64,000 nucleotides of DNA from Limnoperna fortunei (Eukaryota; Mollusca; Bivalvia; Mytilida; Modiolidae): positions 18,936,273 to 19,000,272 of the forward strand of contig OX104112.1 of NCBI GenBank assembly GCA_944474755.1, given 5' to 3'. This document shows, piece after piece, positions 9,535 to 62,206 of the stretch. Numbering within the stretch: the first letter of the stretch is position 1; each line of letters starts with the position of its first letter. The notes below the pieces were generated by a model. The model saw only the letters and a list, made by a program, of their open reading frames with translations, had not been told where the DNA came from and did not search any database. Position numbers and translations under genes: made by a program.

Positions 9535-9570
9535 TTTGAATCTACCATATATACTCGCCATTCATTACAG

Positions 9571-9583: not shown

Positions 9584-10251
9584 CGTAACGATTCCACATT
9601 TACATATATGCGACATATTTCAAATTATATTTTGATTTTGATTTGTTTCGCGGGTGGAAATATCATTTTTACCCCTCGCGATATTCATACGTGGAACGTC
9701 GATTAATTATATATTCATTATATTACAATAATATTGCATTTATATTTAAGTGCGATTCTGGTATTGTCGATTTTTTTTATTAATCTAGACGTCAGACTCA
9801 AAATATTTCTGACTATCCCCCCTTTTTTTCAAACAAGTAAAAAAATCCTCAGACAGTTATTATTCTTGTTGAAGTTGAAATAATAATACAGATAGATTTA
9901 TTAATTTTCTCTTCCATTTTACAGCCGATTTCATTCTCAAAAATCAATTTGTACGGAAATTGCTTTCACAGATTTGTGTATTGAAAATTGAAACCAACAA
10001 CCTTATGTGACAATTTTGTGCGTCAGATCGTCTGATGTCATTATTGTTTACAAGTATTTTGTTTATTCAATAGTTTTCTATCGGTATTTGAGGACAACTC
10101 GTTTTTTGTACATTTTGGTCAAAAACATAAACGTGAGCGATACTCATGTTGACTTTCTTTATGTGTTGATTTGTTAAGGCAAATACAATTGATCCCTTAC
10201 CTACAAATTGGTTTGAGCACTTTTCACGTATTTTGTCAGCAATAAACAGCT

Positions 10252-10377
10252 ATGTCGACGCCTATCGATATAAACACAGCAACATTCGAACAATTAAAAC
10301 AGATATCAGGTATCAGTGATAAGAGGGCAAACAAGATTATAAAAAAAAGACAAAAACAATATGCAAGCAGCTTATGA
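10252..10377 (+). CDS. leader ORF with helix-hairpin-helix-like segment
   Basis: A 41-codon ORF starting ATGTCG in the leader, overlapping the gag start by 17 nt in a different frame. Residues about 6-35 (INTATFEQLKQISGI, then KANK-like IIKKR spacing) match the ComEA-type helix-hairpin-helix pattern: an INxAxxxxL helix, a xxxGI turn and a second basic helix. That fold binds DNA backbone non-specifically. An A8 run at 10341-10348 lies just before the frame is lost, and one base fewer there would fuse this ORF to gag. It may be the true N-terminus of Gag in intact copies, a frameshift-controlled extension, or a uORF. Confidence 0.5.
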   Translation: MSTPIDINTATFEQLKQISGISDKRANKIIKKRQKQYASSL

Positions 10378-15881: not shown

Positions 15882-15984
15882 TATAAAATTGTTGGTACTG
15901 TACATAGAATTGTATATATAAACTTATATATTTACTTTTATATTTTGGGAGCTGTGTGTGTGTCAGATCTTCTAATGCCTCACA
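15602..15984 (+). repeat. short direct repeats in and after pol
   Basis: GTCAGATCTTCTGGTGTCTC-like units occur at 15602-15624, 15653-15672 and 15962-15984. A diverged relative (GTCAGATCGTCTGATGTCA) is in the 5' leader at 10022-10040. The first two encode the DLLVS segments. Their role is unknown. Confidence 0.6.
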
Positions 15985-16080
15985 GTTCCACTTTTCTGAT
16001 GGTTATCAATAAAATAAGAATATTGGTTGTGAGTTAGTAGATTTTTAGATTGTCAGTATGTAATAAATATATAATATTAA

Positions 16081-16101
16081 TATTTACACCTGTATTTTAG
16101 T
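16081..16101 (+). promoter_or_regulatory. splice acceptor-like site before ORF3
   Basis: TATTTACACCTGTATTTTAG ends at 16100, one base before the ATG of ORF3, with T-rich sequence and possible branch points just upstream. This is an ideal position for a spliced subgenomic mRNA that brings ORF3 next to the 5' cap. Confidence 0.45.
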
Positions 16102-17586: not shown

Positions 17587-17698
17587 GTTTTACAAGTATA
17601 TTCTGCCTGTATATATGTTAGTGCATTTTTTACAGATGTTGGACTTGGATTTGTAAATATAATTAGTTTACTGTATTTTTATGACTTATCGGCTTCAC

Positions 17699-17712
17699 AA
17701 AAGGGGGAAGAA
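17699..17712 (+). promoter_or_regulatory. polypurine tract
   Basis: AAAAGGGGGAAGAA directly abuts the 3' LTR, as needed to prime plus-strand cDNA. Confidence 0.85.
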
Positions 17713-17884
17713 TGTTGTGACGCTCCTGGTAATAGCCAGACCAGAAATATACAACTATATAAACTACAGTAGAATCGGGATTGCATATATGAATACCTGA
17801 AGTGGACCTGTGAAGACGATCGTCATACTGTCTTACTTCTCAGGTAATATTTGAATCTACCATATATACTCGCCATTCATTACA
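17713..17884 (+). repeat. 3' LTR
   Basis: 172 bp, by eye identical to the 5' LTR at 9398-9569, followed directly by the ATAC target duplication. Confidence 0.95.
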
Positions 17885-26512: not shown

Positions 26513-27569
26513 CTTGTATTATTAATTGTCATTGGATGTAGTGTATTTAAACCGACATGAAAAAAGTTTCATGAGAGGTAAAAATATAGTTTATCTACAT
26601 TATCTGACGATAGGTCCAAACAAGAATAAGTATGTCAAATGAACTTCAATTAATAATACTGGTCAGACAGATAGCTAGTCGTCAGATTCTTTTAACCTGC
26701 AATCGTCATATTCAAGCAAATTAAATACATTGGCCTTATATGTCTTATGGTGTCATTAAAACGGTTAAAAGCTGTTTAAACTGGATCCCGGACCTCTTCA
26801 AACTGACATCGTAATTGATTCCTGTCATTAAAAAAGTCAAAGTTGGCGAACGCATTTAAATATATTGAATCTTATAACGCAATCGTTTATATTTTCAAAA
26901 GCTCTAGCGACTAAACAGTAAAGAGGGGCGTTATAATAACAGCATGGGTCAAGCCCTTGATCGACGTAAAATTAATTTCAGTGATCTTCTCAATTCACTT
27001 TGTGATAGTTTTTTGACGGTATCGACTTACGGATGAACAAAATCAATATGATCAGTAGTCAGATATTGATCAAGCGATGTATAATTCCGTAGAGCTGACA
27101 GTTATTCTGGTGCAGCTTAACACATTATGTTGGTCATCATGCCCAGTTGTTATAATACACATTATTTTGATAAATGTATGTGCAATATTTAATATGGAAC
27201 ATACAAATTAATCTTAAACTTGAAAGTTTTCCGCTTGATTATAAAAGATTCTGCATCGATCTTGTTTTTGCATCATGGGTAATTTTATTCTAGAATCAAT
27301 TTTTTTCACTTTGGCAACTATAGTGTAATAGCGTGTATTTATTTAAATAATATATTTTTTGGTGGACTTGGATTTAGGCGGATTTAATTCAATTCTATCT
27401 CTTAACAAAATCATTTACGATTTCTAGATCAATTCTAAACTAGTAGATATTGTGTATTCACAATGTTTATCTACTTCCGGTTACATACGCGAGGATTATT
27501 TAAGCCCATTTTTGTCAGTGAGATACTTGTATTCTCCGTAGCCTTTTTTTCTGAATGAGAATAACTAAT
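26513..27569. other. intergenic, no gene seen
   Basis: AT-rich, with nothing recognised. Confidence 0.45.
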
Positions 27570-30500
27570 TATGGTTGTGTGCACGAATAAATTACTATCG
27601 ATATTTTTGTTCCTTTCCTAGTTCAATCACCTGCTGTTACGTGGTCACATGTACTCCAGCAGTGGTTAAAAACGTGTCATTTTTTTCAGCCACCACAATT
27701 AATAAAACATAAATAATATGTTAGTCATGTCAACAGATATTGTAAACAAAGTTTAGAGAAAATAAAATCAATATAAAAATGTTGATGTTAATTTTGCAAA
27801 ACGTTAACCTACGATACAGTACAGAGCGTAATATTTATCCATAAGTCATGTGTTGTCTCCATGAATTCTGGCTCCTCCTCCAGTACAAATATAAATTGAC
27901 GATTGCTGAAATTGAGGTTAAACGCAATTCAAACAAACAAACCCTAATTTTCAAAGAGCCTTCGGCTCGGGCATTACCAATGTTTCAGACCATACCACTC
28001 TTCCTTGTGCAGTCATATTATGACAATGCCTTCTATATAGGCAACTATTGTATAATTAGTTCCTTTGTATACTGTATGACACACATATCATAGTATTTAT
28101 AGATTTACTTGTCATAGGCAATTTTTAGTGTTTGGCTTAAGTATGTGTTTTTTTTTGCTTTAACACCGACTGTATATTTTTGGAGTATTAAAGTTTATTA
28201 CCTGTTGTATTTTGCAGCAAAATAAACTGCCTGGATATTCGTTGATACAATTATTGCCCTTGGTGTCGCTTCGAGGCAAAGGTTGTAAAGCAAAATTGTT
28301 ATTTCACCATACCCAGTCAATAAATAATAATATTTTAGGAATGCATATATTCTAAATTTTAAGAATCTAAAATGCGAAAAAGCAAGAACAAGAATCTTTG
28401 TGATAGTTATTATCAACTGTTTATGGACATGTTGACCGCCTTGGATGATTTTTATTGGCAGTCAATATAACTGTTGACCTCGTTGGACGGTTTTCTTTGG
28501 TAAGAAACATGTTATCACAAACATTAAGTTAACGCCTAGAAAAACAAGACACCTTTAGCCTTCGAAAGAACAAAGAGAAAATATCAGTAAAATTGCTTTT
28601 AAAGCTAAAGAAAAATATTATTCTGAAAACTAATAAATAGCTAGTGCTAGCTCCTGAACACGCAAAAAAGCGAGTAGGGCAACAGTTTATAGATTCCGCT
28701 AAAAAATCACATTGTGACTGAAAACTTAGTCAATAACTGTATACTATGTATTCCTTGCATGTCAACAATGAGGTTTCTGGATTGAATCTCACTATGCGGC
28801 AGGGTATGCCTAGACTATATATTAGATTGGAGCAAGTTAACTAATACCAAAACTCATGAGTGCCACTTACAAATTAAAAAGCGTTGGTAAGAACTGACTT
28901 TTTAGCCCTTTGCAATGGCTCTAATGCGATAACGCATTTTTCCAAATCTGAAAATGGGGTTTGAACAGAGTAAGGACATGGTATTTTAGAAACACACAAC
29001 CCACTTTAGGTCCAAAACAGTCTTTTGATGACCACATCATAACTTACCCACTAACAAGACAACAAATCCTATCAGCCCCCTGGAAGAGCGCTAACTAGTT
29101 CTGTTTGTCAAAACCTACCTCATTACCAAGAATTTGAAAAACACAAAGCAGTCATACGATTAATAAGGCATATTATTATTGAAATCAGAAAAAGACGTAG
29201 AATCATAAAATTATGGTGTCGGCGTATTGTTAACTTAAGTTACATGTAGTAATGTCGAAGAGAAAAGATTTGCTCTCGTTAACCATTTTTGACACCCTGA
29301 TTCTAAAAAAATAGCAAAGAAAACCGACCGAACAACAAGAGCCAAAAGTCACGGGACAGTTACAAACTAGGATATATACTAATACAACAAAAAACCAAAA
29401 ACACAAAAAAAAAGAAAGCGAGAAACCCGAACCCATTAAACGAGTAAACAATGCCTGCTTTTAATTAGACACCCGTCGAGTTTCTCATTGACATGTCTAT
29501 GGAAAAGTCAAATCCAGGAATAGGAAACATTACATATGACAGCGAAAATGTAAGATCGTATTTAAGACACTGATTTCCCATAACGATCAATTAAGTCATG
29601 GTGACGACCATAGAACTTCTGGAGAGATAACATCTACCTAAGTACAACAAACCCTTGTTTGAGTAGTTTAGCAGTCAACAGCAGTGATCGGTCTAGAAAA
29701 TCAGAATACCGATCGTAGGATCTATAAGTTGTGAAATGTACACACCATACGCTGTAGCTGCTGGGATGTTGATGTCGATGAACGAGAAGTTGACAATTGG
29801 ATAGTTGAAGTCATCACGTAAGTCATAGAGTCTAGTTGGTAGTCTATTTCTAGAAGTAGGTCTAAATAAGAGGCTGACCTTAGTGTATTGGTGGTATCTT
29901 TAATTTCAAGCTCGCTAGGGTAAATTGAATGTAAAAAGTCGCCAAATTTAGCATTGTTTAATTAAAGATCTGGCTGGGTCAGTGTCTTTTCTTTCTTCTT
30001 CAGTAGGCCTTATAGGAATTCTGCCTCATAAGAGAAAACAAAACAGGTCGACGTGGAGAGGTGCACAATTAGTACCCACTAAAGGTACAGAATAATAAAT
30101 ATTATTTGTATGTAATATGTTTTAGAAAATTGTCAGTGTCCGTAATGAAGACACTCTTATGTATTCACTACCGGTTTCGTTGTTCTAATGAAATGAAATA
30201 TGTTTTCCTTACTTATCATTAAGATTACGCTTATAAAAAAGACACCAAAGGTTTCATTGAGTTAGAACGGAGGAATTGAATCATTTATCATTTTATTTGG
30301 CACAAAATATGACAGAAAACGAAGGTACTTCTTTTGTAAAATATTTAACAACGATTTCAAATATATGTTTTATATTCACAGTGTGTATACCTGTTTAGTC
30401 GAATCAACCAGGAAAAGAAACAGGGTGATTCCCCGGACGATTCCTGTAGCCTTACTTAGAAAACAAGTTCGTATCACGAGATGCGTCTCTGAGTTATTTT

Positions 30501-31500
30501 ATTGCTTTGCAGGTCATTTGGTCATCTCGTGACGCAAGTAGATATCATATGATAATGATCAAGAATGATGTCACAAATTTATATTATTTTTATCGTGTTT
30601 ATTATGTATATTTTTAACTAACATTTGCGAACTATTTGTGGATAATTAATAAAAAGTATTATTAGGAAATGACTGTAGATCAGTCGGGTTTTTTTGCGTT
30701 TCTTTGATTTGCAAAATTCTCCTTAAACTTAATTGTCTTCATCTCTGTACTCATAGTTAGAAAATGAACAAAGATATTTTGATCTGACTAATTTTATTGT
30801 ATATTGTTCTAGATGTAACAATGGTGAGTTAACGTTTAGTGCACAATTATTTGGGCCAAGAAACTGTTTTGGAAATACTGAACATGTATCTTTTAAAAGA
30901 ACGCAACATAATTCAACCAATAATGTATTGGTTTACCCAAAAACAGCTACACATTGTATAGGTTGCTACTTAAGTGCTTAAATCTGACAAATCACTAGAT
31001 GTCGCATAATTAAGCAGACATCATTTCTAGCACAAAACTCGAATATCCATGTATCGTGAGACATAATTTTAAAGGGGTATTTTCAGATAAATCAGTTAAC
31101 AGAAAAACAAATTGCGCAGACATGTGAGATAGGTTTGGTCCGCAGATATCTTTGCAAAAGTATAAGTTACACCTTGTACTTTATTTTTTTAATCAACTTG
31201 CTCTAAAAAGGCGATAAAGTACAGAACATTTGGATTATTTCTTGCGGACGAGGGTAAAAGAGGAATACCCAATTTGTCATACTTGTTCAATGCCTTTGCG
31301 AGAATATACATGTTCCGTCTATAACAGGTGTGTACCAATTTGTAGAAAATAATAGTAGCAGAGATGGAAATAAAAACACATTTAGATAAATGTTTTTTTT
31401 ATCTCCGACTCGAGACAATACTTTTATGGTACATAGAACAAAAATCAATTAAACACGCCACCTTTTTAAACGCCACTGTTTTATTTTCTTTACTTAGTTG
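27570..31500. repeat. segmental duplication, copy A
   Basis: Many ordered blocks match 32820-36290. Examples are AATAAATTACTATCGAT with GTACTCC.GCAGTGGTT near the start, GAAACAGGGT.ATT.CCCCG and GACGCAAGTAGATAT in the middle, and ATTGTTCTAGAT with TGTATCGT near the end. The copies are diverged by many substitutions and indels. Copy A carries about 1.1 kb between 28.9 and 30.3 kb that copy B lacks, including a LINE fragment. A hairpin (GAGCCTTCGGCTC) lies near 27957. No gene was recognised inside. Confidence 0.75.
29566..30060 (-). mobile_element. non-LTR retrotransposon remnant (RT C-terminal part)
   Basis: The minus strand encodes, with several frame breaks, the typical C-terminal RT stretch of some LINEs: SASYLDLLLEID, RLYDLRDDFNYPIVN, YGVYISQLI, then SDFLDRSLLLTAKLLKQGF and LQKFYGRHHDL. 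Frameshifts and stops show it is dead. The same family is found at 42705 and 58183. Confidence 0.75.
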
Positions 31501-32707: not shown

Positions 32708-32819
32708 CATTATAATAATATAAATTATTATAGTAATAATAGTAATGATAACAATAATATTAATACAAAATAAAATACAAGAAGGTCTTTCCATCAAATG
32801 AGAAAGACCTCAATTACTA

Positions 32820-35800
32820 TTGTGCGCAATAATAAATTACTATCGATAAATCTTCCTTTACTAGTTCAATCACCTAATGTTACATAGTAACATGTACTCC
32901 TGCAGTGGTTGAAACTTGTCATTTTTTTCAGTAACCACAATTTATTGCTACGCAATATATATTAAACAAATAAAACGCAAGTCATTTCGACAGATACTGT
33001 AAACAAATTTCAGAAAAAAGTAAAAAAACAATAATTTTTATTAAGAGCTCATGTTCTTCTTTGTAAAACATTAACCTTGAATACAGTACGCAACGTAATT
33101 TTTGAACAAAAGTCATATTTTTTGTCAAGGAGATTTGGCCTATACTCAATTACAATATAAATTTGGCAATTGCTGAAAGTAGCGTTAAACACCATATAAA
33201 CAAACAAACGTAAATGTTTAAGGCTTTTATTTTTTCCCTGTTATTGCTCAAGGCAAGAGTTTTGGTCATTCTCTCAAACAATGAAATCTTGTATGAAATG
33301 TGCGGGTCTATAATGAGCAGTTGTGATTGTTCGTTTCGTGCGATCCAGAAGAAAGCCTAGCCCGATATTACGCTCCAGATGGTAATAGACACGAGAAATG
33401 TCAGGGACTTGAGGATGGTATATAGGTAAAACGATTTGAAAATAGAAAAAGAGTAAAAGACAATGTCAAAAGTGGTAAGTTGTATCCAATGCTAACAAGA
33501 AATCGCCTCTATAGTGCAAACAAACGTTACATTCATCCGTAAATGACCGATATTAAATTGGTATGTCTGAGCACATGAGCTTACGCGCACTTATCTGTCC
33601 TCGTTGCAATTTTAAAACCAAAACAAATATACGACGTTCTTGTTTCGGCGGTTTTAAATATGAAAACGAATATTAAACAATAGAGAATCTATATGAACGA
33701 TTTGAAAGTTATTCCAAGAAATATGTGCTTTCATCCGCTTTTATGAAAGCATTTGCAATCTTCTTTCGATCGCAAAATATAAAAATTCGATAATTCACTG
33801 TCTTTCTTAAAAAGGATTATCAAAAACCTGTTGAACTACTGGATAAAGATCATCAAAGTTACACTTTCCTTGTTGTAATGAATTGTTTGTGTCAATATTT
33901 CATAATAATTTATGATCGGTTATCTCCCCCATTGTATGCGTTTTTTGGTATTTGTTTAGTGTTGTATGTTTTTCTGAATCCGGATTCGCAATTGTTCCGT
34001 GACTTTCGGTTGTTGTGCGCTGGGATCTTTATTTTTTTTTTCATTTTGCAGCAGTTGTGTGGTAAATTCGATCTTACTGCTGTACAGAAGACTACCTGTT
34101 TAATGCGTTAAAATTGTGTAGCAAGTATTACAGTTAAAAATTCTTAACTATAAAATACATTTATATAAACACGGAAAGAACGGCGTAAATACAACAACAT
34201 AGCATTGCTAATATATGGTTTAACGTATTAAAACAATAATTCTTTGGTTACCTTTAATGAGCCATAATATAATTCAAAAACTTATATGTAGCCTCTGCCG
34301 CTTAACAAAAAATGTTGGGCAACAGTAAATGAATGGATTCAACAAATCAGATATAAAACAGAAATTCAGACAATAACTATATACTTTTTATCCTGTGCAT
34401 GTCAACACCAAGGTTGCTATATTGAATCTCACTGTGTGCCTCGACTTTAATTTCTGTTACAAGTACTGCAAGTTTTCCTGTCGAGAATTGGGTTTTCACA
34501 GGGAACTGCGGTTATCCCGAAATAAAAATGCTAACTTGACGCTACGACATATCTTTAAAATGCTAGTCGTTAAGCAGGATTTAAACAACAAACAACGAAC
34601 TAAACAAAATTCAACCTACCAATTGGTTTCAAAGAAGTTGTATGAACGAACCATATTCTATAGGGTGTCACTATCATATAATTTTCAAATATTTAAGACG
34701 GAAACAAGTTAACTTATAACAAAACTTCCGAGTGACACTTACAGAGTAAGAGACGTTTGTAAGGATTTACTTAGAACTGAAAAATGATGGGAAATGTGTA
34801 AGGATACGGATAAAATTGTAGAAGCGCAGGCGACTATATTTTTCAAACTTTTTTTTGAACTGAAAGCAAGATGATTACGTCAGATCTATAAATCGATAAA
34901 AGTCATTTAAAAGTGTGTCAATAGTACGGTACGACTGAGTTTCCCAAGGTGTATAATTTAACACACAGTAGTAGCACACACAACATATATATCCGATTAT
35001 ATCAAGTTGTCTATTATCGTAACTTAATTTAAGACACAATACAATTGAAAACAAAGGTGCTATTGTAAAATATTTAACATCAATTTAATAAATATGTTTT
35101 AAAATCCGTTTTATATTTGAATCAAATACGAAAAGAAACAGGGTTATTTCCCCGACAATCCTTATATCCTTACTTTGAAAAACACAGATCGCATTTTATT
35201 GTTTTGCAGGTTATTGGGTATTTATTGACGCAAGTAGATATAATATGATACGAAAATTTTTACAAAAGTTATTATTATTTTTATAATTATTTATTATCAT
35301 CCTGTTATTCTTTATATTTTTTTCTTATTACCAAGATTAAGGTCAGTGATTCTTTGTGTAACTTTGCCAAATTCTAATCTATACATATTTTTTTTCATTT
35401 CTTTACTCATACATAAAAAGATACATCTGAGTGAATTATCTATTGTTCTAGATTTAGAAATGGTTAGTTAACGTTTAGCGTCCATTAAACAAGCCAAGCA
35501 CTGTTTGGTAAATACTAAACTACTTAATAGAACAAGAACAAAAAATAATTCAAGCAGTTATGTATTGATGTACCCAAAACAGCTCCACCTTGTAATAGTT
35601 GACATGGCTACTTGTGTGCTTGCACTTCACAATTCACCAGTTGTTGCGTAATAAAGCTGCATAAACATAAATTATATCTAACACAATAATCGGATACACA
35701 TGTATCGTAAGCTCCGTAACTGTTGCTGATTGCAGCCGACATCTTTAAGCGATCTTTGAATATTGACCAAGCACTATTTTAAGGCGTATTTGCAGCATTT

Positions 35801-36290
35801 ATTAGTTACGAGACTAAATTCTTCGCAGACATGTGGAGGAGAAATGGTTTTTAAACGGGTATTTTCGCAAATCCACTTCCAAAAAATTAACCTGAGGAAT
35901 TACCATGAATACTTCATTTTTCCTAAATCAAATAGTTCTAAAAATGCACATAAAGTACTGAACATTTAGAAAATTTCTGGCAAAAGACAATAAAGGGGAA
36001 TACCCAGTTTATCATACTTTTCAATGTATTCGCGAGAATATGAACGATCTGTCTTTATAAATCAGTTGTTCCGATTTATAAATATATTAGTTGCGATGAC
36101 AATAAAATCATATTTAGATAAATGTTTTATTACTTTCTCTGACTACAGACAATGATTTTATGGTACACCGCACAAACAATCAAATACAAACACCGGAATC
36201 ACGAGTTAAATACTCTTCCCGCATGCGGTAGGTAACTACGTTACATACCATAAGTTTTTGAATGCCTCTGTTTTCTTTTATTTACTGCGT
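32820..36290. repeat. segmental duplication, copy B
   Basis: The diverged partner of 27570-31500, in direct orientation at an offset of about 4.6 to 5.9 kb depending on indels. It contains about 1 kb of its own sequence between 33.25 and 34.3 kb. The frames at 33878-34111 and 34395-34712 show no recognisable domain, and their counterparts in copy A are not conserved as frames, so I do not call them genes. Confidence 0.75.
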
Positions 36291-44122: not shown

Positions 44123-44422
44123 ATGGCGCAGATGTCGTCAAGTAAATGTAAAATTTGTGATAACAATTTGGGAATATATTTCTGTTATGAGTGTCAACAC
44201 GTCTTATGCCAATCGTGCCGTACATTTCACGATAAATTCCCTGCTACAAAGAGGCACACAGTTACATATTTACATCGTATTGACTTTGCCTTACAGAATT
44301 TAAACGTATCTTGCAAAAATCACGGTCAGGAATTTGTTTATTTTTGTCAGAATTGTGAATGTTTAACGTGTGGTGTTTGCGTGATAAGCAATCATAAGGA
44401 TCACCTACTTCTATTGAATTAA
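44123..44422 (+). CDS. B-box (TRIM-like) protein, N-terminal block
   Basis: Opens at ATG in good context (AATATGGCG). Residues about 9-50 form a first B-box-type zinc module (CKICDNN, YFCYECQ, LCQSC, FHDKF, H at about 43). Residues about 62-95 form a second B-box (CKNHGQEFVYFCQNC, CLTCGVC, NHKDH). Tandem B-boxes without a RING, followed by a coiled coil, are common in bivalve TRIM-related proteins. The frame stops at 44420-44422, but the expected continuation resumes at 44424 in another frame. One extra base, or two lost bases, in about 44403-44432 would explain this. It may be a pseudogene, a real recent mutation or an assembly error. Confidence 0.75.
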   Translation: MAQMSSSKCKICDNNLGIYFCYECQHVLCQSCRTFHDKFPATKRHTVTYLHRIDFALQNLNVSCKNHGQEFVYFCQNCECLTCGVCVISNHKDHLLLLN

Positions 44423-44423
44423 T

Positions 44424-44824
44424 ACAGTGCAAAATATTCTCGAAATTGAAGAGGACCACCATAAATTTGTTAGAAGCGTGGAAAGTTTAGCCACTGAATT
44501 CCATAACATGATCGATTTTGTTGTCGAAACCAGTATAAACCTGGCAAAAGATAACCACGATTTGGGGATGCGGCTGCTTAATTTTACTCTTGCAAAATTG
44601 AAGAAATCAAAGGAAGAATACATTTTTGCAAGTCAGAAATATGAACAGATTCTAAACGAAAAACATAATACCACGTTTCTTTACCAAGAAAGAAAATTAT
44701 CGGCAGACATAGAAGAGCTTCAGCCAATTTCAGATATTCAGCAACCATCAAAAATAAAGGAGATTGATGCACAAGAATTTACTGCAGCTGTTATTGACCA
44801 AATATTGTTGAAACACAGTATAAT
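44424..44824 (+). CDS. coiled-coil continuation of the B-box protein
   Basis: Open frame starting TVQNILEIEEDHHKFV and running to 44843. It has long charged helices typical of the region after B-boxes, and an acidic, Gln-rich stretch in the middle (ADIEELQPISDIQQPSK). It has no ATG of its own and is out of frame with the B-box block by one register. A donor-like AT|GTATCA at 44824/44825 would leave phase 2, which matches the next exon. Using the stronger TA|GTAAAT at 44842 would create a stop at the junction. So the exon end is uncertain. Confidence 0.6.
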
Positions 44825-45542: not shown

Positions 45543-45686
45543 AATTTTTGAAGAAATTAAAACTGAGAACACAATATTCCAAGAAAAACTACAAAAGTCG
45601 ACCCAAAAATTGGAAAACGAAAACAAAGAACCGAAGAGGCGAATTAAAAAGTTGCCATTACAAGAAAAGAAAACCAATACTATTGA
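45543..45686 (+). CDS. coiled-coil exon, 144 nt
   Basis: Bounded by TTGTAG| and |GTAATT, phase 2 on both sides, length divisible by three. It encodes a highly charged helix beginning IFEEIKTENTIFQEKL and ending in a Lys-rich part (KKLPLQEKKTNTI). A coiled coil fits a continuation of the B-box protein. Its GA| end joins the first base of the next exon to form GAA. Without splicing it would hit TAA at once. Confidence 0.6.
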
Positions 45687-47956
45687 GTAATTACATGTAC
45701 CATTTTTCTTAACTGCATAACTCAACTGCTATATTACGTAAGGATGCAAGTACGGAAATCTTAAGCCTTAACACCAATATCCTGTTTACATTCAATTTAC
45801 TGAGCTTGATATGGACGAATTTGTAAACTATCTTTTTTTAAAATAAATAATTGTATCCGCCTTTGAAGCACCTAACTTATGATGCTGTTGTCTGTACTTG
45901 CGTCTTTCCAATTGTTTACTTTGTAAGCATGCTAGCAAATGTTTCTCCTAAGATATATATACAACGTATAGTCAAGTTTCTGTTTAACCCTTCGACATAT
46001 ACATATACGAGAGCATAATAATATCTCAAGAAAGTCAGATGAGTTAATGGTGCATATTTTGGGAAGTGTATCTTAATTGTAACTATGACACATAAACATA
46101 TTAAAGACTGATATCGTTGTAATTCGCTACTATCTCATATATATTTAACAAATAGATTGATAAATTCCAAGGAAATATCAAAGGGTTTGATGTTAAAAAG
46201 CTAAAAGTTTACATAAATTTTAATTTCCCACAAAAAAGGTATTTTCTTGCTCTATAATCAGAGATCCTGTTAAGTAAATGCCATATATCTTAAGTCTTGA
46301 GACAAATAGTTTCTCTCTCGTTATGTTTTTTCGTTGATATACGAATGTGAAATTAGAAATCTGAAAAGAAATGACGTTTTCATTAAAGGAGTTTTTGCCA
46401 ATCGTTTAATTGCACGTTCCCCTGTACAGATCTACTCCTTTTGTTGAACAATTCACGTTTTAGTAACTTTTAATATAGTATATTTCCCAGTGATTAAATG
46501 ATTAAATGCGAAAACTGTTTGGTGTTTCGCTCATTTTTATATCTTGAAATCGACATTGATTTTCCAATCATACGTTTCTAATTTCTCGTTATATGACGAC
46601 AATTCATCCTTATATAAATATCATACAATATAATATATACTGTAAGACTTATTTCCTAAAGAGATTTCCATGACAGAGAATTGATGTTCAATGAAATTGT
46701 GGATGCACGTTCGTAAATTTGTAGTTGTTATATTTGCCATGATAAAGTGGTTGATCATTTTGGGTCAGTCGCCCAGATAGTATAAGATATTTTCGATTTT
46801 CCCGATATCACTGATTTCGGTCGGTTTTCTTTGCTATTGTCCAATGAAATATTTTTCGGATTAGTTTTCTTTCGTCCGGCAAATTGTCAAAATTGCACAG
46901 TGGAAAAGTACGCGACATGCAATTGGTGTTTTATTACAAGTATATCGAAATAGTATATGGAGTTAATAACTCAAATTCGGAACAGTTATCTTTCGGATTT
47001 TTCATCCAAATCACCAAAAACTATTTTTGTTGCATACTTTTTGTAACTATAATAGATATAGGATCAATCATGGGTGGTTCATGTACTGATGAGACTAACT
47101 CAATGGATATGGTGAACAAAAAATGTTGAAAACGATCTAGATCTAGCTTCAGTTAATACTCACAAATCATTAGTTGTAAGCAACTAGGTTCTCCACCACT
47201 GGTGGTCACCTTTAGAAATTGGTCGCAAGGTTACAATCTAACTGCCATCATGAGCATTGATGAACATGTCATCATTCGTATCATTTAATATTCATATCAT
47301 CTAGAAACTTATAAAAATAGACTAAAATTGAATTCACGAAAAATGCTTGTGGCGTGAAGACCCAACTTTGTATTGACATTACAAGTTTTGACAAGTCCTT
47401 TAGAGGCAAAACTAATAAGGAAAGTTTTTGTCTGTAATAGGCCAAAACATTTAAATTATAAGTGATAATGACTACGGGCTTCCCATTGGTCATTTTGTGA
47501 ATTAAATATTACAGCTATTAGTGGTAAAGACCTATGATCTAAACTATTTGCTATCCTGATAAATAATAAAAAATGATGTTAAGATCAAACTAGAACAATG
47601 ACTTTGACATTTGACTTATTTTGTTATTATAAATTTCTAAAACTCTAAATAAAAGACGTAAAAACATGAAGACTCCTTATTGAGCTTTCAAAATATTCAA
47701 ACCAAAAATCGTAAGTACATAGGTCTTCGAAATATTTTATTTTGAGACATAATCTTCCCAAAAATTATCTAAATAGTTTATTGCTCGCTGAATGTTAATG
47801 TACACAATTTTGTTGGTTTCCATATAGTTTTATTTTTTGTGCTTTGCAGCCAATAAATGGAAAGTGTACACGGTATGCGACAAAAAATAATTGTTGTGGA
47901 CAGATTATTGTGATTATCACTGTTGTTGCAGTTTAATGCGTTAAATTTCATTTCAG

Positions 47957-47986
47957 ATCAAACAGCTCCAGTGAAGAAGGCTCCTC
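47957..47986 (+). CDS. microexon 1, 30 nt
   Basis: CATTTCAG|...|GTAAGTAA borders, near-perfect consensus. In phase 2 it encodes SNSSSEEGS, an acidic serine cluster fitting casein-kinase-2-type phosphorylation. It has a close copy at 50627. Confidence 0.65.
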
Positions 47987-48602
47987 GTAAGTAAATTATT
48001 GAGTATTAAGAAATAGTAAAGCAGCACACACTATGCACTTATAATTATAGTTATATGGAATTATTGTTACTACTTATATCATCAAATCAAAATATTTTAC
48101 GTTTGATCATTATTTTCCCTGAGAGTTCCGCTTAGGTTACTTCCACTTTGGGAACAGAACCACATCAAAATTGATAATAGTTTTGCAAACAGTTTCATGA
48201 TTATTTATTTAAGCAGTAATAATATCAATGCCCACTTACTTTATTGCGAATCTGTGCAATAACAGTCCACCGGTTGCTGATAAAGTATCCCGAAACTACC
48301 AACTTGAAGATAATGAAATTTATTACGCCATGCGCATTTTATCAATCAGATTACCCCATTTGCACTCAAAATCTACTTTAACAAATATAATGAAAGAAAA
48401 CAAGTATGATGTAATTATACAGTAATAAAAATGTTTTTATCCTCTATGAATTTTTTTGTGTACTTTTAACATTAACTGCCTAAAAGTGGCTTAATTTGAG
48501 ACAGAATAAAGCAAATAAAAACTGTCAATAATTTGTTGATGTCTAAAATTTTATGTAGTTCAAATGCTATAATTTTTACTATGTTTGTGCTTAATTTTCC
48601 AG

Positions 48603-48635
48603 GATAATTATAACACCACCACTACCATCATCTAT
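48603..48635 (+). CDS. microexon 2, 33 nt
   Basis: TTTTCCAG|...|GTAAGAAA borders, phase 2. It encodes IIITPPLPSS. The paralogous exon is at 51054. Confidence 0.6.
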
Positions 48636-50626
48636 GTAAGAAATTACTGATAAATACTCAACATCTTATTTATTTTGCTTTGTAATATGTTTGTTTTAAG
48701 TTCTACTGACTAGTCTTATTTCGAGAAACATGTCTGATGTTGTAATTCTGTAACATAGTATCTCTGATGACATTTATTTAATGTTATTATTGACTGATCT
48801 TGATATGGACAATTTTGTACACTTTAAAAAAAGTATATCCGCTTTCGAAACACCCGAAACAGCACCAACTAGGATGTTGTTGTCTGTACATGCGTCTTTC
48901 CTTCTGTTCATTTTGTAAGTTAGCTAGCAAATGTGTTTACAAAAGTTATCATTATGACTACTTTAATAAATAAAGTCCATTTGCGATATGAATCATATGA
49001 ACGAAACATATGCATATGCTTGAGCATAATAATGTCTCCAGTAACACAGATGAGTCAATGTCGTATATTTCTAGAAGATAATATTTGGGTATACTTGCAT
49101 TAAAACACCAATGGCATGTCGCGTACTTTTTCCACGGTGTACTTTAAAAAACAAATTGCGAAAGGAAGAAAAGTAATCCGAAAAGAAAAAACGAAATCGG
49201 TGTACGTTAACAAAGGAGTATCGAGATCAGCAAACTCGAGAATATTTTTCACAATCTGTGACTGGCAAACATAATGATAAACCACTTCATAATGGCATAA
49301 TAACCGAACATTGCGAGTTTTCTATGGACACTATAGCTTACTTCCTTAATAAAACTACAAGTCGTAAAGCTGAAAAATTTCCAAAAGTGGTGTTAAATAG
49401 CATTTAAACAAACAAATTTAATTTTGAAGACATTATGTGTAACAAGGCTCCGTTTGTGAGAAAATGGGCCTCTGACAACTGAAAAGATATTTTGGGATTT
49501 GCTGCAACGAAATGACACTAACTTTCAGTTCAAAAGCGATGCCATGAGCAAGTAAGTTACACATCATTTTGGCGTGAGGCGACAGTTTTGGTATCCCAGG
49601 ATCATTTGGATTGGCAATCCCCTTAAAAGATTTTTTGTCCTATACAACATCGAAAACCTTGTTATTAAATAATATCTTGAACCCTAATTCACAGAGAAAA
49701 ACTGACGAGTTTTCTAAAGGAATGATGGGATAACTTGATTACATATTGCCGAAAAAATTAGGGTAAACGTATAGGAGTTTTTGCAATTGAAAACTTTACT
49801 ACTTTCGTAATGGGGAATACTTACAAAACGTAAGTCGGTAGCACATAGGTTCCTTTCACCTGTGGTCATCGTAATACTTCACCTGAAAATTGTGTCAAGG
49901 TTAACGTTCAACGATGAATTCGGTCTTTGACATTAAACATTGTTTTCAAAATCCACCACAGATAAGTAAAAAACAAATTATTGAACACGTTTGGAACTTT
50001 TGTTGTATTCGGAACAAAGAGTTTTGTCCACTCCTTAATGTTAAAACTTCCATTGACGGTTATGATTAATACGTGAGGGCTAAAACATTACATCTGTTAG
50101 TCGTAAAGACCTATGTTCTAATCCATTATCTATCCTGATCTAACAATGGTGTTAAGGTCAACTAGAACAATGAACTTTACCTTAGATCTGTATTGTTATT
50201 ATAAATTTCAAAACTGTAAATATAAACTATTAAACACATGAAAACTATTTATTGGGTTACTCATATGGAAAGTTGTCTGGGAAAAACATTAATATGATAA
50301 GTTATAAATTCTTAACCATAAAACTACAAATGTGGTATTACTTTCAAGTACAGACATGGTTAAGCTACTAAACTATTCAAACCGAAAATCGTAAAGACGT
50401 TTGTCTTCGAATTATGTAATTTTGTGACATGTCCTTGAAAATAAAATAACATTAATTGTCTTTTGCTCGTTGGACGTTAATGTGCACAATTTTGTTAGTT
50501 TCTTTATGGCTTAATGTTTTGAGCTTGGTTGCATATTAAATAGAAAGTGTACAAGGTTTGCGACAAAAATTATTGTTGTCGACATATTGTTGTGCTCATC
50601 ATAGTTGTTGTTAAATTTCATTTCAG

Positions 50627-50656
50627 ATCAGACAGCTCCAGCGAAGAAGGCTTCCC
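50627..50656 (+). CDS. microexon 3, 30 nt (copy of microexon 1)
   Basis: CATTTCAG|...|GTAAGTAC, phase 2, encoding SDSSSEEGF. The flanking introns align with those of microexon 1 (CGACAAAAA.TTATTGTTGT upstream). Confidence 0.65.
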
Positions 50657-51053
50657 GTAAGTACATAATTTAGTATTACAAACAATTCAAGACGCATACC
50701 TTGTACTCTCATAATCACAGTTCTAGTAAATCAATATAAAAACACATCATTTGCACTAAAATCTTTGTGCCAAAACTGCTGTGTCAATATAATGAAAGAA
50801 AACAAGTATGATGTCATTTTATATTAATACATATATTTTGACCCTCATCAAATTAAATCATTTCAACAGAAACTAACAGCAAGCTTCTGTGAGACTTTTG
50901 TGTACTTATTAACATTAACGTCGATATTTGACTGCCTCGCTTAATTTGATGTCTTTATTTAAAAGACAGAATAAACCAACTATAAACTGTCAATAAATTG
51001 CTGATGTTATTTGTTGGAACTGTGAGAATATGAACGATTTTTTTTTATTTCAG

Positions 51054-51077
51054 GATATTTCCAACCCCACCACCTAT
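51054..51077 (+). CDS. microexon 4, 24 nt (copy of microexon 2)
   Basis: TTATTTCAG|...|GTAAGAAA, phase 2, encoding IFPTPPP. It is 9 nt shorter than microexon 2, still keeping frame. Confidence 0.65.
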
Positions 51078-51605
51078 GTAAGAAATTACTGATAAATGCT
51101 TTGCAACATTTTAATTGTTTTGCCTTGTAATTTGTCTGGTTTAAGTTCTATATGTTTGTAGCATTTATTTAAAGTTATCATTTGATATTTAAATCCATCA
51201 ATGTAAATCTATATAGACAAAACGAAACGTTGGTACGTTATACACTATCGCCCTAATTGTCCCTATTGCTGTTATGAAGTGCAAATAATTATGTTTAAAA
51301 ACTATGTATTATAATTATTGAAAACAAACACGTATGTTTTAATAATGTTTTAATAAACATGTTCTGAACTGTCATCAAGGTGAATCACTTTTACGAGAAG
51401 CTATAGCTACATCAGAGCAAATACTGCCTCTTAGGAGCCATGTGTAAACATTGACTTTAACGTCAACATCTGACCTTTTGAAACATCACTGGCTCAACAA
51501 TTGTTTTTACCTTAAATTTGATGCACATATAAACAGAAACTATTATTATTCGTTTTTACTGTCGGAATATTCAGTGAGATTTTTACTTGTTACTTTTTGT
51601 TTTAG

Positions 51606-51626
51606 GAAATCTGGACCAACACCTAA
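51606..51626 (+). CDS. microexon 5, 21 nt
   Basis: TTGTTTTAG|...|GTATGAAG, phase 2, encoding KSGPTPK once joined. If the intron is retained the frame continues as KYEACIL and stops. Confidence 0.65.
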   Translation, partial: EIWTNT

Positions 51627-52337
51627 GTATGAAGCTTGCATATTGTAACCTTCAAACCTTTTATATTTTTTATCACATTTATTTACATTATTAATTTCAT
51701 ATTACTATCTATCAATACAAACAATCTACTTAGCCTAATCGAATCGTTGATATGTTGTGGATAATTGCAATAATGAAAGTTAAAACCAAACTGTGTCGAA
51801 TTAAAGTATTCACCAATTCCTCGCGATTCCATAATAAATATTGTATTCCTACTTAGAAACAATGAAAACTCTTAAATATGAACAAATAAAAAAGACAACA
51901 CATAAATTAAAACCCGTTCAAAACATAATTGATAATGATATTATTACATGCGTCCATACCAGACAATATTGTGACGTAGACAGTTATTTTGGTGAACAAA
52001 CGTATTGTTTTTCTTTAACAATTACTTATTATACATGTATTATAATACAAAGCACTTGTGTGGTTGAATAAGCTTTTACAAATATATTTTGAACCCTCTT
52101 TACTGAGAAGCTATGGTAAAGCTTAACATGTTCGTTCTATGAGAAACTATTGCTGAACAAGTTGATATTAAATTCGAGACCTGACATTTTGCCACATGAC
52201 CTTATAGATAATTCCTTTACCTTGCATTAATTTGATGTTCACAAAGAGAAACTTAAACAAATATAAGCTGTCTATAATTATGTTATTGGTTTTATCTGAA
52301 TTTTGAATGATTTTTTACTTGTTATTTTTTATTTCAG

Positions 52338-52358
52338 GAAATCTGGACCAACACCTAA
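52338..52358 (+). CDS. microexon 6, 21 nt (identical to microexon 5)
   Basis: TTATTTCAG|...|GTATGAAG. The exon sequence is identical to microexon 5, and its whole 0.73-kb unit is nearly so. Retention would give KYEDCIL and a stop. Confidence 0.65.
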   Translation, partial: EIWTNT

Positions 52359-53070
52359 GTATGAAGATTGCATATTGTAACCTTCAAACCTTTTATACTT
52401 TTTATCACATTTATTTAAATTATTAATTTCATATTATTATCTATCTATACAAACAATCTACTTAGCCAAATCGAAACGTTGATATGTTGTGCATAATCGC
52501 AATAATGAAAGTTAAAACCAAATTGTGTCGAATAAAAGTATTCACAAATTCCTCGCGATTCCATAATAAATATTGTATTCCTACTTAGAAACAATGAAAA
52601 CTCTTAAATATGAACAAATAAAAAAGACAACACATAAATTAAAACCCGTTCTAAACAAAATTGATAATGATATTATTACATGCGTCCATACCAGACAATA
52701 TTGTGACGTAGACAGTTATTTTGGTGAACAAACGTATTGTTTTTCTTTAACAATTACTTATTATACATGTATTATAATACAAGGCACTTGTGTGGTTGAA
52801 TAAGCTTTTACAGATATATTTTGAACCCTCTTTACTGAGAAGCTATGGTAAAGCTTAACATGTTCGTTCTATGAGAAACTATTGGTGAGCAAGTTGATAT
52901 TAACCTCGAGACCTGACATTTTGCCACACGACCTTATAGACAATTCCTTTACCTTGCATTAATTTGATGTTCACAAAGAGAAACTTAAACAAATATAAGC
53001 TGTCTATAATAATGTTATTGGTTTTATCTGTATTTTGAATGATTTTTTACTTGTTATTTTTTTATTTCAG

Positions 53071-53091
53071 GAAATCTGAACCAAAATCTAA
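53071..53091 (+). CDS. microexon 7, 21 nt
   Basis: TTATTTCAG|...|GTAAGAAG, phase 2, encoding KSEPKSK. A diverged copy of microexons 5 and 6. Confidence 0.6.
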
Positions 53092-53770
53092 GTAAGAAGT
53101 CTGGTGATTTATGGTCTTTAACATAATTATTTTGTTGCCTAGTAATATGTTGGTTTTACTTCTACTGATAAGTCTTCTTTTAGAAAAAAAACACTTGACT
53201 GACGCTGGGAGCTTCATAATTTGTCACATTTATTAATTTAATAATTTCTTGTGTTAATTTTTCAATCAAAACATTTACTCAGCCAATTTAAAACTTTTGT
53301 ATGTTGTAAAATATAGCCTTAATGAAATTGAATGCAAATGACGTCGTAATAAAGTAACCAATATTTCCTATCAATTTCACAACATTTTTTCCTATACCAA
53401 GTAACACAGAACAATTATACTGTAGCCTTAAATAATCAAAACACAAGTCATGTTTCCTTTACATTTTAAGTGTTATACATACTTATATTATAATATTATT
53501 ACAGACAAAAACAAGTAATCATGCTTATGTATACAAAAATCATGTCCTTTAATAGGCTTTAGTGTACAATTTGACATTAACATAGATATGTGACCTTTTG
53601 CCACATCATTACCTTGACGATTCATTCACCTTGGTTAAATTTTAGGCTCATACTTACAAACATAAACAAATTTAAGCTGTCAATATTTTTGAAAATCTGC
53701 AATACTATTTGTTTTAACTAGTATTTGAATTTTATGCGAGTTTGTTTTTACTAGCTACTTATTATTTCAG

Positions 53771-53795
53771 AAAAGCTGGAGCCAAACCTAAGTAA
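53771..53795 (+). CDS. last microexon, ends in stop
   Basis: TTATTTCAG| then a copy of the 21-nt unit encoding KAGAKPK. The phase-2 reading runs straight into TAA at 53793-53795, so this is probably the terminal coding exon. The same GT position is present (|GTAAAA) but is weak. An AATAAA-like TAATAAAG lies near 54190. Confidence 0.55.
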
Positions 53796-53799
53796 AAAG

Positions 53800-56700
53800 A
53801 GGATAAATGGATCCACTAATTCCTAGCATTTTCAAAGCAACTTTTTTTATTCTATTCTGAAACAAAAAACAAAACAAAACAAAAACAAGAATACGTCTAC
53901 CTGAAATAACCAAAAACCAAAATAAGCTTGAAAGCTAGAGTACTTGCAACTGTAAACACATCACTTTGACTAATTAATGCCTGATTGCTGACGCATTGTG
54001 AAACGCCTACGGATCTCTGACTGATAGCTGACAATACATCGGTCGAAAATAATGAATCAGTAATTAAATTGGTAACCGTCAGCTATCAGTGCGATCAGTC
54101 GAATACAGAATCTATTATTTTATTATATGTAGATATAGGTCGATTAGGAATTTAAACTTTAAACGCTATATGTCATTAATATACTTTAATAATAAAGTGA
54201 ACGCATAATGTCAATAGAATAGTTAATACTAAATGTATCGTTCTGAACAGATTTTTCCTTATAATATGTAATAAAGCAATTATTTATTGTTAGAGGTAAT
54301 CATCTTAAAATTATCATCAAAATATAATTTTTATAGACGACATATATCGTCTTTGACAGTACGATACATACGGAAAGGTGTGAAAGTAACGTGCAATGTG
54401 TTAATGGCGTCGTCCACGAATTCTTACATTGACATCGTAATTAGAAATTAATCAATGAACACTTTGTTGTTTGTTTAGTATTGTTTCGTTTTTTTTTTAC
54501 TTTTTTTTTGTTTTTACTTTTTAAAATTTTTTTTTGCTTGTTGTTGTTGTCGTAACATTCAGTCTTACAAGTATTATAATAAAAAAATTGCACTAAATTC
54601 TAAATGTTATAGAAACAACAAGCAGATGTTTGCAGACAGCATATAACTTTTTATTAGAGTTATGAGCCTAATTAAATTGTCATCAAATCTGTTTGGTCAC
54701 AAAAAACAAATTCTTTCCGATGAGTTTCTGTTTTGTCTTTTCACGCAGTCATCACATAACCCAAGGGCAAAAATCTAGTATGACCAGTATGCTTACCGCA
54801 ACATTCAGACAATTTTCAACTATATCACGGTGTGCAATTTTTATTGCGAATGAAGCCGGAGTACTAGGGAAAACCCCCAACTTTCGGCACTGACCAAATT
54901 TAACTAAAGTTGTCTCATCAGGTTCGTAAGAACTGCCACATTTTTTCTGCAGCATTTATTGCTAGTTTTTAGTATCTATGATAACAGTGTTTGGGTAAAT
55001 ATCTTTATTAAAATGTTTAGATTTCGCAGTGTTGAGTGGCGAATGATCGCAAGGTACCCTATCGAAACACTACCATTTTGATATGCCAGTGTAAGCTTCG
55101 TGATGTAGAAAAGTTTGAGTTCTGTGACCATTTGGTAGGTCTTTTCAGTTGAATATTCTAGTAAATAATTTGTGAACCTAGTAATAAGGATCATTTTTTA
55201 TAACGCATAAATAAAACTTTTAGCGAATGTCATACCATCTTTATTTATATGACCATTTGTTATAAAAGAACACATTTTCAGTACTCTCAAAGTTCATCGC
55301 ATAAAGCTTGATAATAGACTAAATTTTGTAAATACTACCACAGTCTATTGAAAACCAACAATTAAAAATAATACAAATTATTAATGTTTAGTGAAATATT
55401 CAGTTCACAAGGGAGGTGGTCTATCTGAACCTAAAATGAAAGAAACTAATGTTGGTGATTGTTGATCTGCCTTCTGTCTCAATTACTTGAATTGTGTGAT
55501 TTGATATTGGTTTATCTTCCTTTTGTATATTAGAACCGTCAGAAGGCAATTCATCTTAAGAAATTAAATTCTAAAAATTGAACTTACTGCAAGTATTCGT
55601 TTCGTTTCAGAAATCATAGCTCAGAAATGGTGAACTTTACAAAACCAAATAAATGATGGTAAATTACAAAAAATGGTTGACTTTAAACTCAGATTTCTTC
55701 TAATGGGTTTTCAATATTTGCCGTATAAGTCATAGTTTTTATTTGAATTGTTAAAACATTAGTCTGTTCACCAAAGTTTTGTCATAATATACAAGTGCTG
55801 TGTAAACCTAAAACGACCTTACATTTCCGACAAACAATCTTCTATTATGATGCTCGAATTAAATATTAAATGTTTGATGTAGCTCCTATACAGATTGCTT
55901 AAGTTTTGGATTCCTCGGAGGGCCTTTGTGGGTAGACCAATTAAGTGGCAATCAGAGCTATCACAAGTCCTAAAACTATAGTAATGATGAAAAGAGTGAT
56001 TGATCGCTGAACTATTGACATATTACAGCTGGGAGAATACATTCAGGATAAAACGATCAGTATAAATAGTAAATAGTAAAGGAAGAAACACATACATTCA
56101 GATGTGCATCGTTCACTATATAAAATTGTAATGTTAGTGTTGCAGTTCAAAGAATAGTGCATAAGCTGTTATACATATAGTATTTGAAAATGGTGCAGTA
56201 ATGCAACTACACGTAAATCGAATTTATATAAAAAAAGAAATAAATAAACTCTTATTTTGTCTGGCGACAGCATTGAGCGTATGTACCCACAATAAACTCT
56301 AAAATAAAATCATATAACGGAAAAACTAAAATTCCGCTCCTTTCGCGCTTTTGGGTTACATCCATATATTTCCGTAGTCGATTTGTTCGTTTTGAATCTA
56401 ATATGACAAAGATGAAATACATTGTAAGATATGTGTATAAATTTGGAATAACAAGCTAGTCAAACAACTCTTTATACCACAAACGGTAATCATTTTTTTA
56501 TCCTTATAATCACATGATCTAAGGTCAAATGAACTTTATCTGAACGACGTTACGTGCGGCAACAATATCAATATACGAATGGATGTTTTGCTTGAATTAA
56601 ATTATATACCGACTTGACTCATATTAATTAACAACACATTTATAATCAAATAGCTCGCGAAAGGACTAAACTTATTTATCGAAAATGTGCGTACGAACAG

Positions 56701-58560: not shown

Positions 58561-60226
58561 AGTTGGAATGCCAACAGTCTGTTGAAAAACATGTCAGTAT
58601 AGAATATCGAAACATCAAAAAGATTTTCATCATATAACATTGGCGAAGAGATTCATATTTAAAATATCAATTAGGTCTGTTGAAATTTATAGTATCTACA
58701 TTTTATTTATGCTACTCCTGCAGTAGCAAGTGTTATGTTCAAAACGAGTAACAGTAGGCTATTTACTTTAAGGATGTTATTTAAATGTATGATATAAATT
58801 ATTTCGTTCATTAAATTTATTAGATTTAATGACGTTAAGATATCTGAGTTTGAATGTGTTTCAACGCCTGGACAAACTTTAAAATATTATGCGAAGTATT
58901 TGTTAACCTGTTTTCGCAAATTTATTTATTTATTCACATGAAGCATAATTTATTAAAGATCTTTTACTAACACGAGAGACAAATAATATCCAATTTCTTC
59001 AGTTTGGAAAGACTGCATCTGGTAAAGAAATGCAACATTTATAACGGTCTTTAGGCTATTTAATCAATGTTCGAAAAATACTCAAAATAAAGGACATTTC
59101 GTTTTGAATGCCTTAGCAAAACAATATTTAAGTACACATGTATGTTGTTAGGAACAAATGTGTTTTAGTCGAGTGCAGTGCCTGGTTTTTCAGTTTTAAC
59201 ATATTTAAATTCTTTTCACGTAAGGTCGTTTTGTTTAAATTAGAACATAAGTACCTATTAAGTATATTTCACATTTAACATGTACATAGTTGATATATTG
59301 ATTTGACCTCCGTCATGTCATAAACAAATCATTGACAATATAGTATTCGATAGTATGGTTGCATCAAATCATCTATTCTATTAGGTACCTACGCGTATAA
59401 AGGCGATTTTAACATTTTTTTAATTCTAAATACAAGAAAGGTTATTTTGCAAAGGTTATTTATATTACCAGTTTTACCAACGAACACAGATTGTTTATAC
59501 TGTTCAGAATAAATGCCATATTAAATCTTTGATGTTCTACAATTTATTTTTCCGTAAACATTGTATGATGCCCCATCAAAAGCTGTAAATTTGATAAAAA
59601 AGTAGCATTTCATTACAAATTGCACAATTTTTATTAAATTGTCCAATTTCGTCTCCCCGTTTCAAAAACTAATTATTGTATTTAGCATGAACTAGTTTAT
59701 CTTAAATATTTATCCCTCATCTGTATGCTACCGTTGACGGATCCGGGGACACGTTCTGTACATATTTATGGGTGTGGGAAGAAGCTCTTACATCGTTAAA
59801 TGTCTCAAAGAGAAACCGCTATTATTTTCCCGCTACATTGATGGCAATTGGGAAAAGATTTTCTTATACCTTTTAATAACCAGGCAGATGCAATTCAACA
59901 AATATTAAAGTTTATTTATGATATTCTTATGACAAAAAATCAGCCTGTAGATGTTACAACATGCGTACAAATGGTACAATTAAAACAGGCCTATTTTGCA
60001 AACCATCAGACAAACACTTTTTGTACATGTAAAATCAGATCTCCTGAATTGGTCAAACGAGCAATGTCATATATGGTTAATATCCTGCTTTCAGATATCT
60101 GAAATAAAGTTATTTATCTAAATATATCAGCTTAATAATAGATTATATTCAATCGATTCGAGGTGAATTTTCCTGAAACAAAAACAAATTGTGTCGCAAT
60201 TTGATTGTCTTAAATTATTGTCTTAC
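58561..60226. other. no clear feature; possible intron
   Basis: AT-rich. On the minus strand an acceptor-like TTTACAG| at 59583 precedes a short open stretch beginning FDGASYN (59582 down to 59521) that fits the phase of the exon at 60227. Its donor is weak, so I do not call it. The plus-strand frame at 59848-60102 begins with TTG and is unrecognised. Confidence 0.35.
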
Positions 60227-62182: not shown

Positions 62183-62206
62183 ATTTTCTCAGTAGACGTA
62201 TCACTC
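62183..62206 (-). CDS. possible 24-nt microexon
   Basis: Minus strand: TTTTATTTCAG|...AAAAT|GTAAGC. Both borders are good and the length is divisible by three. Two of the three frames are open. It might be an upstream exon of the tentative minus-strand gene, but no linkage can be shown. Confidence 0.25.

Follow-up and report, generated by a model that had tools for sequence, protein, structure and literature searches.

A candidate array of phase-2 microexons behind a B-box/coiled-coil gene of the bivalve Limnoperna fortunei

Nine exon-like pieces, most of them 21 to 33 nucleotides (nt) long, lie in a row on the forward strand of contig OX104112.1 (C2; assembly GCA_944474755.1) of Limnoperna fortunei. 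On balance, we favor the interpretation that this array is the C-terminal tail of a RING-less B-box/coiled-coil (TRIM-like) gene, put together by the predicted splicing of tiny, tandem-duplicated phase-2 exons, and that the first exon of this gene carries a frame-shifting deletion. The whole 64,000-nt stretch that was analyzed (C2:18936273-19000272) is referred to here as the window; coordinates beyond 1-64000 extend its numbering onto the fetched flanks. The B-box gene in the window is called gene 1, and three related genes in the same genome are called genes 2, 3, and 4. The DNA of gene 1 contains a B-box exon, a coil piece, and small pieces with lengths divisible by three, ordered on one strand and sharing a phase, together with homology among the repeated units, homology of the first exon to the related genes, and a 92-nt shortfall. 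We infer from these features that gene 1 uses both the coil and the small pieces as exons.

The original prediction of nine pieces behind one another was borne out: AG precedes each piece, GT follows each except the last, which ends in a stop, and the internal lengths of 144, 30, 33, 30, 24, 21, 21, and 21 nt are all multiples of three, as had been stated. Joined, the nine pieces form one open phase-2 frame to the stop, reading IFEEIKTEN...TIESNSSSEEGSSIIITPPLPSSISDSSSEEGFPIFPTPPPMKSGPTPKKSGPTPKKSEPKSKKAGAKPK before the stop codon. The 144-nt piece (45543..45686, +), phase 2 at both ends, is the putative coiled-coil exon and agrees in position and phase with its counterparts in genes 2 and 3. 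Behind it on the plus strand follow a 30-nt piece encoding SNSSSEEGS (47957..47986), a 33-nt piece encoding IITPPLPSS that belongs to a Pro/Lys module family (48603..48635), a second 30-nt piece encoding SDSSSEEGF (50627..50656) that is a duplicate of the first, a 24-nt piece encoding IFPTPPP (51054..51077), two identical 21-nt pieces that encode KSGPTP(K) (51606..51626 and 52338..52358), a 21-nt piece encoding KSEPKS(K) (53071..53091), and the terminal piece, KAGAKPK and a stop (53771..53795), whose TAA overlaps a donor-like GTAA. By a simple consensus score, the acceptors of all nine pieces rank in the top 0.2 to 11% of AGs in the window, and the donor at 53091 and those behind the 30-, 33-, and 24-nt pieces in the top 2 to 7% of its GTs; the donors at 45686 (top 35%) and at 51626 and 52358 (top 20%) are weak by the same score. 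An alternative frame in which the 30-nt pieces give QTAPVKKAP-like peptides was rejected by eye because it runs into stops inside the 33-nt piece and again where the 24- and 21-nt pieces join.

The order of B-box and coil exons and their phase recur in the related genes. A search of the genome (1.335 Gb, 285 contigs) with the first exon of gene 2 gave at least 145 matches (144 of 1527 candidates scored). Gene 2, read from open reading frames (ORFs) in the flanks, is an intact paralog on the minus strand, with a first exon of 265 residues (75825-75032) that ends in AG/GTAAGT at 75032 and a coil exon of 156 nt (67118-66963). Gene 3 has a first exon (211797-211003) that is 74% identical to that of gene 2 (nonsynonymous divergence dN 0.133, synonymous divergence dS 0.536) and likewise a 156-nt coil exon (191106-190951); the first exons of genes 2 and 3 lie 11 kb and 147 kb from the window end. 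Gene 4, third best among the listed matches, is 28 Mb away (C2:47056567-47057307), and a query with the gene 2 coil found two coil exons downstream of it, all four hits of that query belonging to genes 2, 3, and 4. In these three genes a coil exon stands downstream of the B-box exon on the same strand, as in gene 1, whose 144-nt coil exon shares its position, its phase at either end, and its coiled-coil character with the 156-nt exons of genes 2 and 3. First-exon donors are phase 2 in genes 2 and 3 and in 20/20 further members (gene 4 included), which were hand-picked from the upper rows of the gene 2 first-exon matches reaching residues 261-265 and read over 121 bases around the exon end; in 15 of the 20 the phase-2 GT falls at exactly the same base, and in the rest it lies at or near the aligned end. 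The coil donors of genes 2 and 3 and of the second coil exon of gene 4 are also phase 2 (GTACGT), so the tails of genes 2 to 4 must begin in phase 2. The phase that had been proposed from raw sequence is thus the phase of the B-box family, and genes outside the array lend support to symmetric microexon-like pieces that follow a coiled-coil exon in a single phase.

The identity of the host family is indicated by domain matches. Pfam zf-B_box matched gene 1 with an expect value (E) of 1e-15 and genes 2 and 3 with E of 1.4e-13 and 2.4e-13. The best solved-structure match of gene 2 was TRIM28 (6h3a; E 9e-16, residues 8-219), and chains of TRIM28, TRIM25, and TRIM5 were matched over the B-box and the coil region that follows it. 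A RING finger was not among the Pfam hits of the first exons of genes 2 and 3, a further upstream exon being still possible.

Tandem duplication of entire units, each made of intron and exon, appears to have multiplied the small pieces. One duplicated intron-exon module comprises six of the eight (33, 24, 21, 21, 21, and terminal), and the two 30-nt pieces are a separate duplicated pair. One model found all six (E 2e-16 to 2e-9), all six having been used to build it, and nothing else in the window or its flanks (20 kb upstream, 30 kb downstream) exceeded its inclusion threshold, the next-best place (60187-60166, minus strand) scoring E 0.047. Blastn also ties the sequences that flank the 33-nt and 24-nt pieces to the flanks of the piece at 53071 (E 6.6e-9 and 4e-11). 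The most recent event was a duplication of an intron-microexon unit of about 732 bp (51546-52366 versus 52283-53099, within 51546..53099, +; 94.6% identical), of which an older, 67.5% identical copy at 53563-53800 (+) holds the terminal piece. An older duplication involved a unit of two microexons (47504-48055 and 48499-48705 versus 50083-50725 and 50964-51150, within 47504..51150, +; 72 to 77%). Duplicate exon lengths differ by 0, 3, and 9 nt, and four diverged duplicate pairs keep both AG and GT, an outcome expected at about 1% from intron identity; in the 30-nt pair, acceptor plus exon is the best-conserved 50-nt stretch (46/50). The copy at 53071 varies more than its flanks (3/21 versus 35/774 columns; p 0.07), as does the 21-nt exon of gene 3 (4/21 versus 15/268 columns; p 0.04); diversifying selection on the 21-nt exons was considered on this basis and dropped, the p values being too weak and post hoc. 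Further upstream, window positions 27554-31456 and 32797-36193 are tandem segments with aligned pieces 66 to 79% identical, and similar ORF fragments were seen by eye near -4372 and 87929 in the flanks. This duplication (27.5-31.5 versus 32.8-36.2 kb) was rejected as a source of exons, its candidates measuring 25 versus 24 nt, and 11 nt, with no conserved symmetric exon; further large exons at 18-44 kb were also rejected, as no coherent chain was recognized there in a coding-score scan.

A number of observations weigh against this interpretation, several of them in the host gene itself, which lies upstream at 44123-44824 and which, together with its lesion, had been missed when the nine pieces were originally described. 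The 5' part of the first coding exon (44123..44422, +; 47% identical to gene 2 residues 1-94) encodes two B-box zinc fingers over 99 codons and then reaches a frame-shift stop. At 44405..44444 (+), 40 nt separate homologous residues that stand 132 nt apart in gene 2 (tblastn anchors 44404/75544 and 44445/75411), and because of this net loss of 92 nt the frame shifts to a stop at 44420-44422, so that in assembled gene 1 the frame from its ATG ends after 99 codons, short of the tail. The rest of the exon (44445..44824, +; 39% identical to gene 2 residues 139-264) ends in a weak phase-2 donor (AT/GTATCA) where family members splice, and the coil donor (GTAATT) is weak as well. The gene 1 copy is probably impaired, and we expect that the full B-box-to-tail protein is not made from its own ATG. 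Between duplicates, moreover, exons are not clearly better conserved than introns (26/30 versus 254/325 and 20/24 versus 148/192), the 33/24-nt pair scores 31/50, under its average of 34, and the majority of exon differences change an amino acid; the comparison therefore does not point to purifying selection on the tail sequence as such. The shortfall, the weak donors, and exon copies that drift like introns would all fit a relic, in which former exons lie in what has since become a pseudogene and splicing and translation of the array have ceased, as would a further decayed B-box copy with stops at 123530-123886 (+), which is closest to gene 1 (56% over residues 1-94). We nevertheless consider this unlikely. 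From 44445, the first-exon remainder, the coil, and the small pieces (ten pieces in all) stay open in the same frame for 243 codons to the TAA; apart from the lesion stop, no stop occurs in 44445-44824, the coil, or the tail; the youngest module duplication retains its borders; and, before as well as after the lesion, differences between genes 1 and 2 peak at the third codon position (53/45/79 and 31/26/51), such counts being used instead of codon-rate tests of gene 1 against genes 2 and 3, for which dS was saturated or not computable in most pairs. Since no further stop is present and the position-3 excess holds on both sides, the lesion appears to be recent, unless an unusual allele was assembled; a second allele was not found, the gene 1 coil exon DNA matching the genome at one place only.

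Other points on the same side concern homology and chance. The gene 1 coil resembles the coils of genes 2 and 3 marginally (61 and 65 of 2000 shuffles score as high; BLASTP E 2.4 against the paralogs), genome searches with it miss the coils of genes 2 to 4, and the reverse searches miss it. A model built from the four 21-nt pieces finds the 24-nt piece only at E 0.096 and the 33-nt piece not at all; single-source models of the gene 1 pieces give no significant hit in either gene 2 or gene 3, and the candidate tails of these two do not match that of gene 1; the stretch of about 3.8 kb that follows the second coil exon in gene 4 contains no candidate of a length divisible by three; and protein database matching put 0/155 and 0/165 candidates above the cut-off. 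An open chain by itself is weak evidence for exons. When seven independent AG..GT pieces of these sizes were drawn, some frame was open in 3.9% of trials, compared with 30% for duplicated pieces and, in a simulation of eight pieces with duplication and divergence, 27%; under that eight-piece null the phase-2 frame is open in 12.8% (0.13). Under a strict threshold, phase-2-open candidates divisible by three have a density of 0.56-0.68 per 10 kb per strand (the arrays themselves included), with 3 on the plus and 0 on the minus strand of the 9-kb tail region; at a relaxed threshold, a background of 2.5-2.9 per 10 kb per strand compares with 10 on the plus and 1 on the minus strand; and at the loosest setting the tail region has 13 and 10, no clear excess. 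The frequency of open frames under duplication, the regional abundance of relaxed candidates, and the weak resemblance of the coils leave some room for a tandem DNA repeat with chance AG/GT borders whose small pieces were never exons, but such an origin seems quite improbable to us: both the strand and the phase of the pieces suit the first exon before them, which has its donor phase set by the family, AG and GT survive together in four diverged duplicate pairs, an outcome expected at about 1%, and exon lengths differ by multiples of three only. To the extent that the array stands above chance, it does so through features outside the interval first described: a first exon farther upstream that is homologous to those of the family, and related genes that share its exon order and phase. 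If the pieces are real exons, all of them might be constitutively included, the duplications lengthening the tail and creating no isoform diversity. Nothing in the sequence indicates skipping, and tandem growth alone accounts for the array, but the weak donors at 51626 and 52358 might favor skipping, and we regard strictly constitutive inclusion as possible, if somewhat unlikely.

We favor, therefore, predicted exons with the following behavior. Phase-2 microexons would have been multiplied by tandem duplication of intron-exon units, and with phase 2 at the start and end of each exon behind the first, gain, loss, or skipping of any piece would leave the frame intact. Skipping would vary the number of acidic Ser blocks and basic Lys/Pro heptads behind the coiled coil, and a probably disordered tail would change in length and charge accordingly; such variation through splicing is the most likely use that we infer for the array. 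The window contains several stages of a single series of duplications, with copies that are 94.6%, about 75%, and 67% identical, from which growth of such an array could be read directly. Exons of 21 to 33 nt are expected to escape gene finders, and tails of this kind may be absent from mollusc annotations. The intact paralogs should be the place where the mechanism is tested.

Candidates for tails in those paralogs are leads only, since about 0.6 candidates per 10 kb are expected, repeat copies are redundant, and no cross-gene match was significant. For gene 2, which is convergent with gene 1, they are a 24-nt phase-2 microexon encoding SDTSTEK (62183..62206, -), with about one such candidate expected by chance in the 17 kb scanned, and a weak possible terminal exon (60127..60172, -). 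Downstream of the gene 3 coil exon, a tandem array contains four copies of a 27-nt and seven copies of a 21-nt phase-2 candidate, which when joined give an open reading, each repeat copy repeating the same candidate. The flank at 140000-185000 consists of tandem 6.36-kb units (99% identical) and 3.6-kb units (about 90%) that carry these candidates. A combined gene 1 and gene 2 model hits the 27-nt exon of gene 3 at E 0.012; single-source models do not, and homology of the tails between genes is not claimed.

Elsewhere, the window and its flanks contain several other features. A retroelement resembling Ty3/gypsy, with polyprotein ORFs at 10343-15881 recognized by eye, lies within 9398-17884 and is flanked by identical 172-nt repeats (9398-9569 and 17713-17884). 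Between the same repeats, a 501-codon ORF (16081-17586) has a TatD-DNase domain (Pfam E 2.7e-41) and is possibly a captured host gene. An ORF at 1158-2345 (-) has weak leucine-rich-repeat matches and, by eye, a look-alike about 91 kb away, beyond gene 2, at 93720-93998 (-). A long tandem repeat from -19999 to about -12340 is open in several frames on both strands (TEDNARN- and GIPGIVL-like). Three palindromic stretches (8525-8665, 7982-8135, and 929-1081), which match their own reverse complements at 84 to 89%, are perhaps small inverted-repeat transposons.

Symmetric microexon runs are best known from parasitic flatworms, where they vary secreted proteins. In the passages of PMC4350168, PMC7653826, and PMC10526429 that describe them, the micro-exon genes (MEGs) of schistosomes and tapeworms have runs of tiny exons, divisible by three and separated by long introns, whose skipping keeps the frame, and part of the composite gene VAL-6 carries such a run, perhaps by recombination with a MEG. 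The gene 1 array is likewise a predicted run of very small pieces divisible by three, with long introns, in which skipping would keep the frame. According to the definition in PMC7653826, a MEG has at least seven exons, of which at least half are shorter than 70 nt and divisible by three, with at least four of these in a row; gene 1 as modeled has ten predicted exons, among them seven internal microexons, all consecutive. A signal peptide and a secreted product are further MEG traits (PMC10526429), whereas the gene 1 run stands behind an N-terminal B-box and coiled coil, and the N-termini of genes 1, 2, and 3 enter the B-box directly, with no hydrophobic stretch seen by eye. MEG proteins are also called verified in these passages, whereas the gene 1 exons are known here as predictions from sequence alone. 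As modeled, gene 1 resembles a micro-exon gene in its mechanism, but we do not class it as such, since inspection found no secreted-protein trait and its exons are predicted. In their titles and abstract openings, the open-access papers listed by the literature search name no microexon array from molluscs or from a TRIM gene. The tandem B-boxes followed by a coiled coil, with gene 2 residues 8-219 matching TRIM28, resemble TRIM (RBCC) proteins; gene 1 differs from these in that no RING was found in the first exon and in its predicted microexon tail. Many TRIMs carry a folded C-terminal domain. In fast skeletal troponin T (TNNT3), a run of exons lies near the N-terminus. This run, exons 4-8, is alternatively spliced (PMC2447309). 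The protein is unrelated to that of gene 1, and its run has fewer exons. Among expanded bivalve orthogroups, a table passage of PMC8382680 lists a B-box zinc-finger family (OG708), to which the family of at least 145 first-exon matches in L. fortunei may be compared; that passage has no word on exon structure or tails. A more far-reaching and rather unlikely reading is that a mollusc TRIM-like B-box branch grew schistosome-style microexon tails at least twice in parallel, once in gene 1 (seven internal) and once in gene 3 (27- and 21-nt candidates in 6.4- and 3.6-kb repeats over about 36 kb), with splicing producing many tail variants of one innate-immunity-type scaffold. The array itself, if its exons are real, would be a second case, in another lophotrochozoan and on a B-box scaffold, and would mean that the microexon-run design arises repeatedly.

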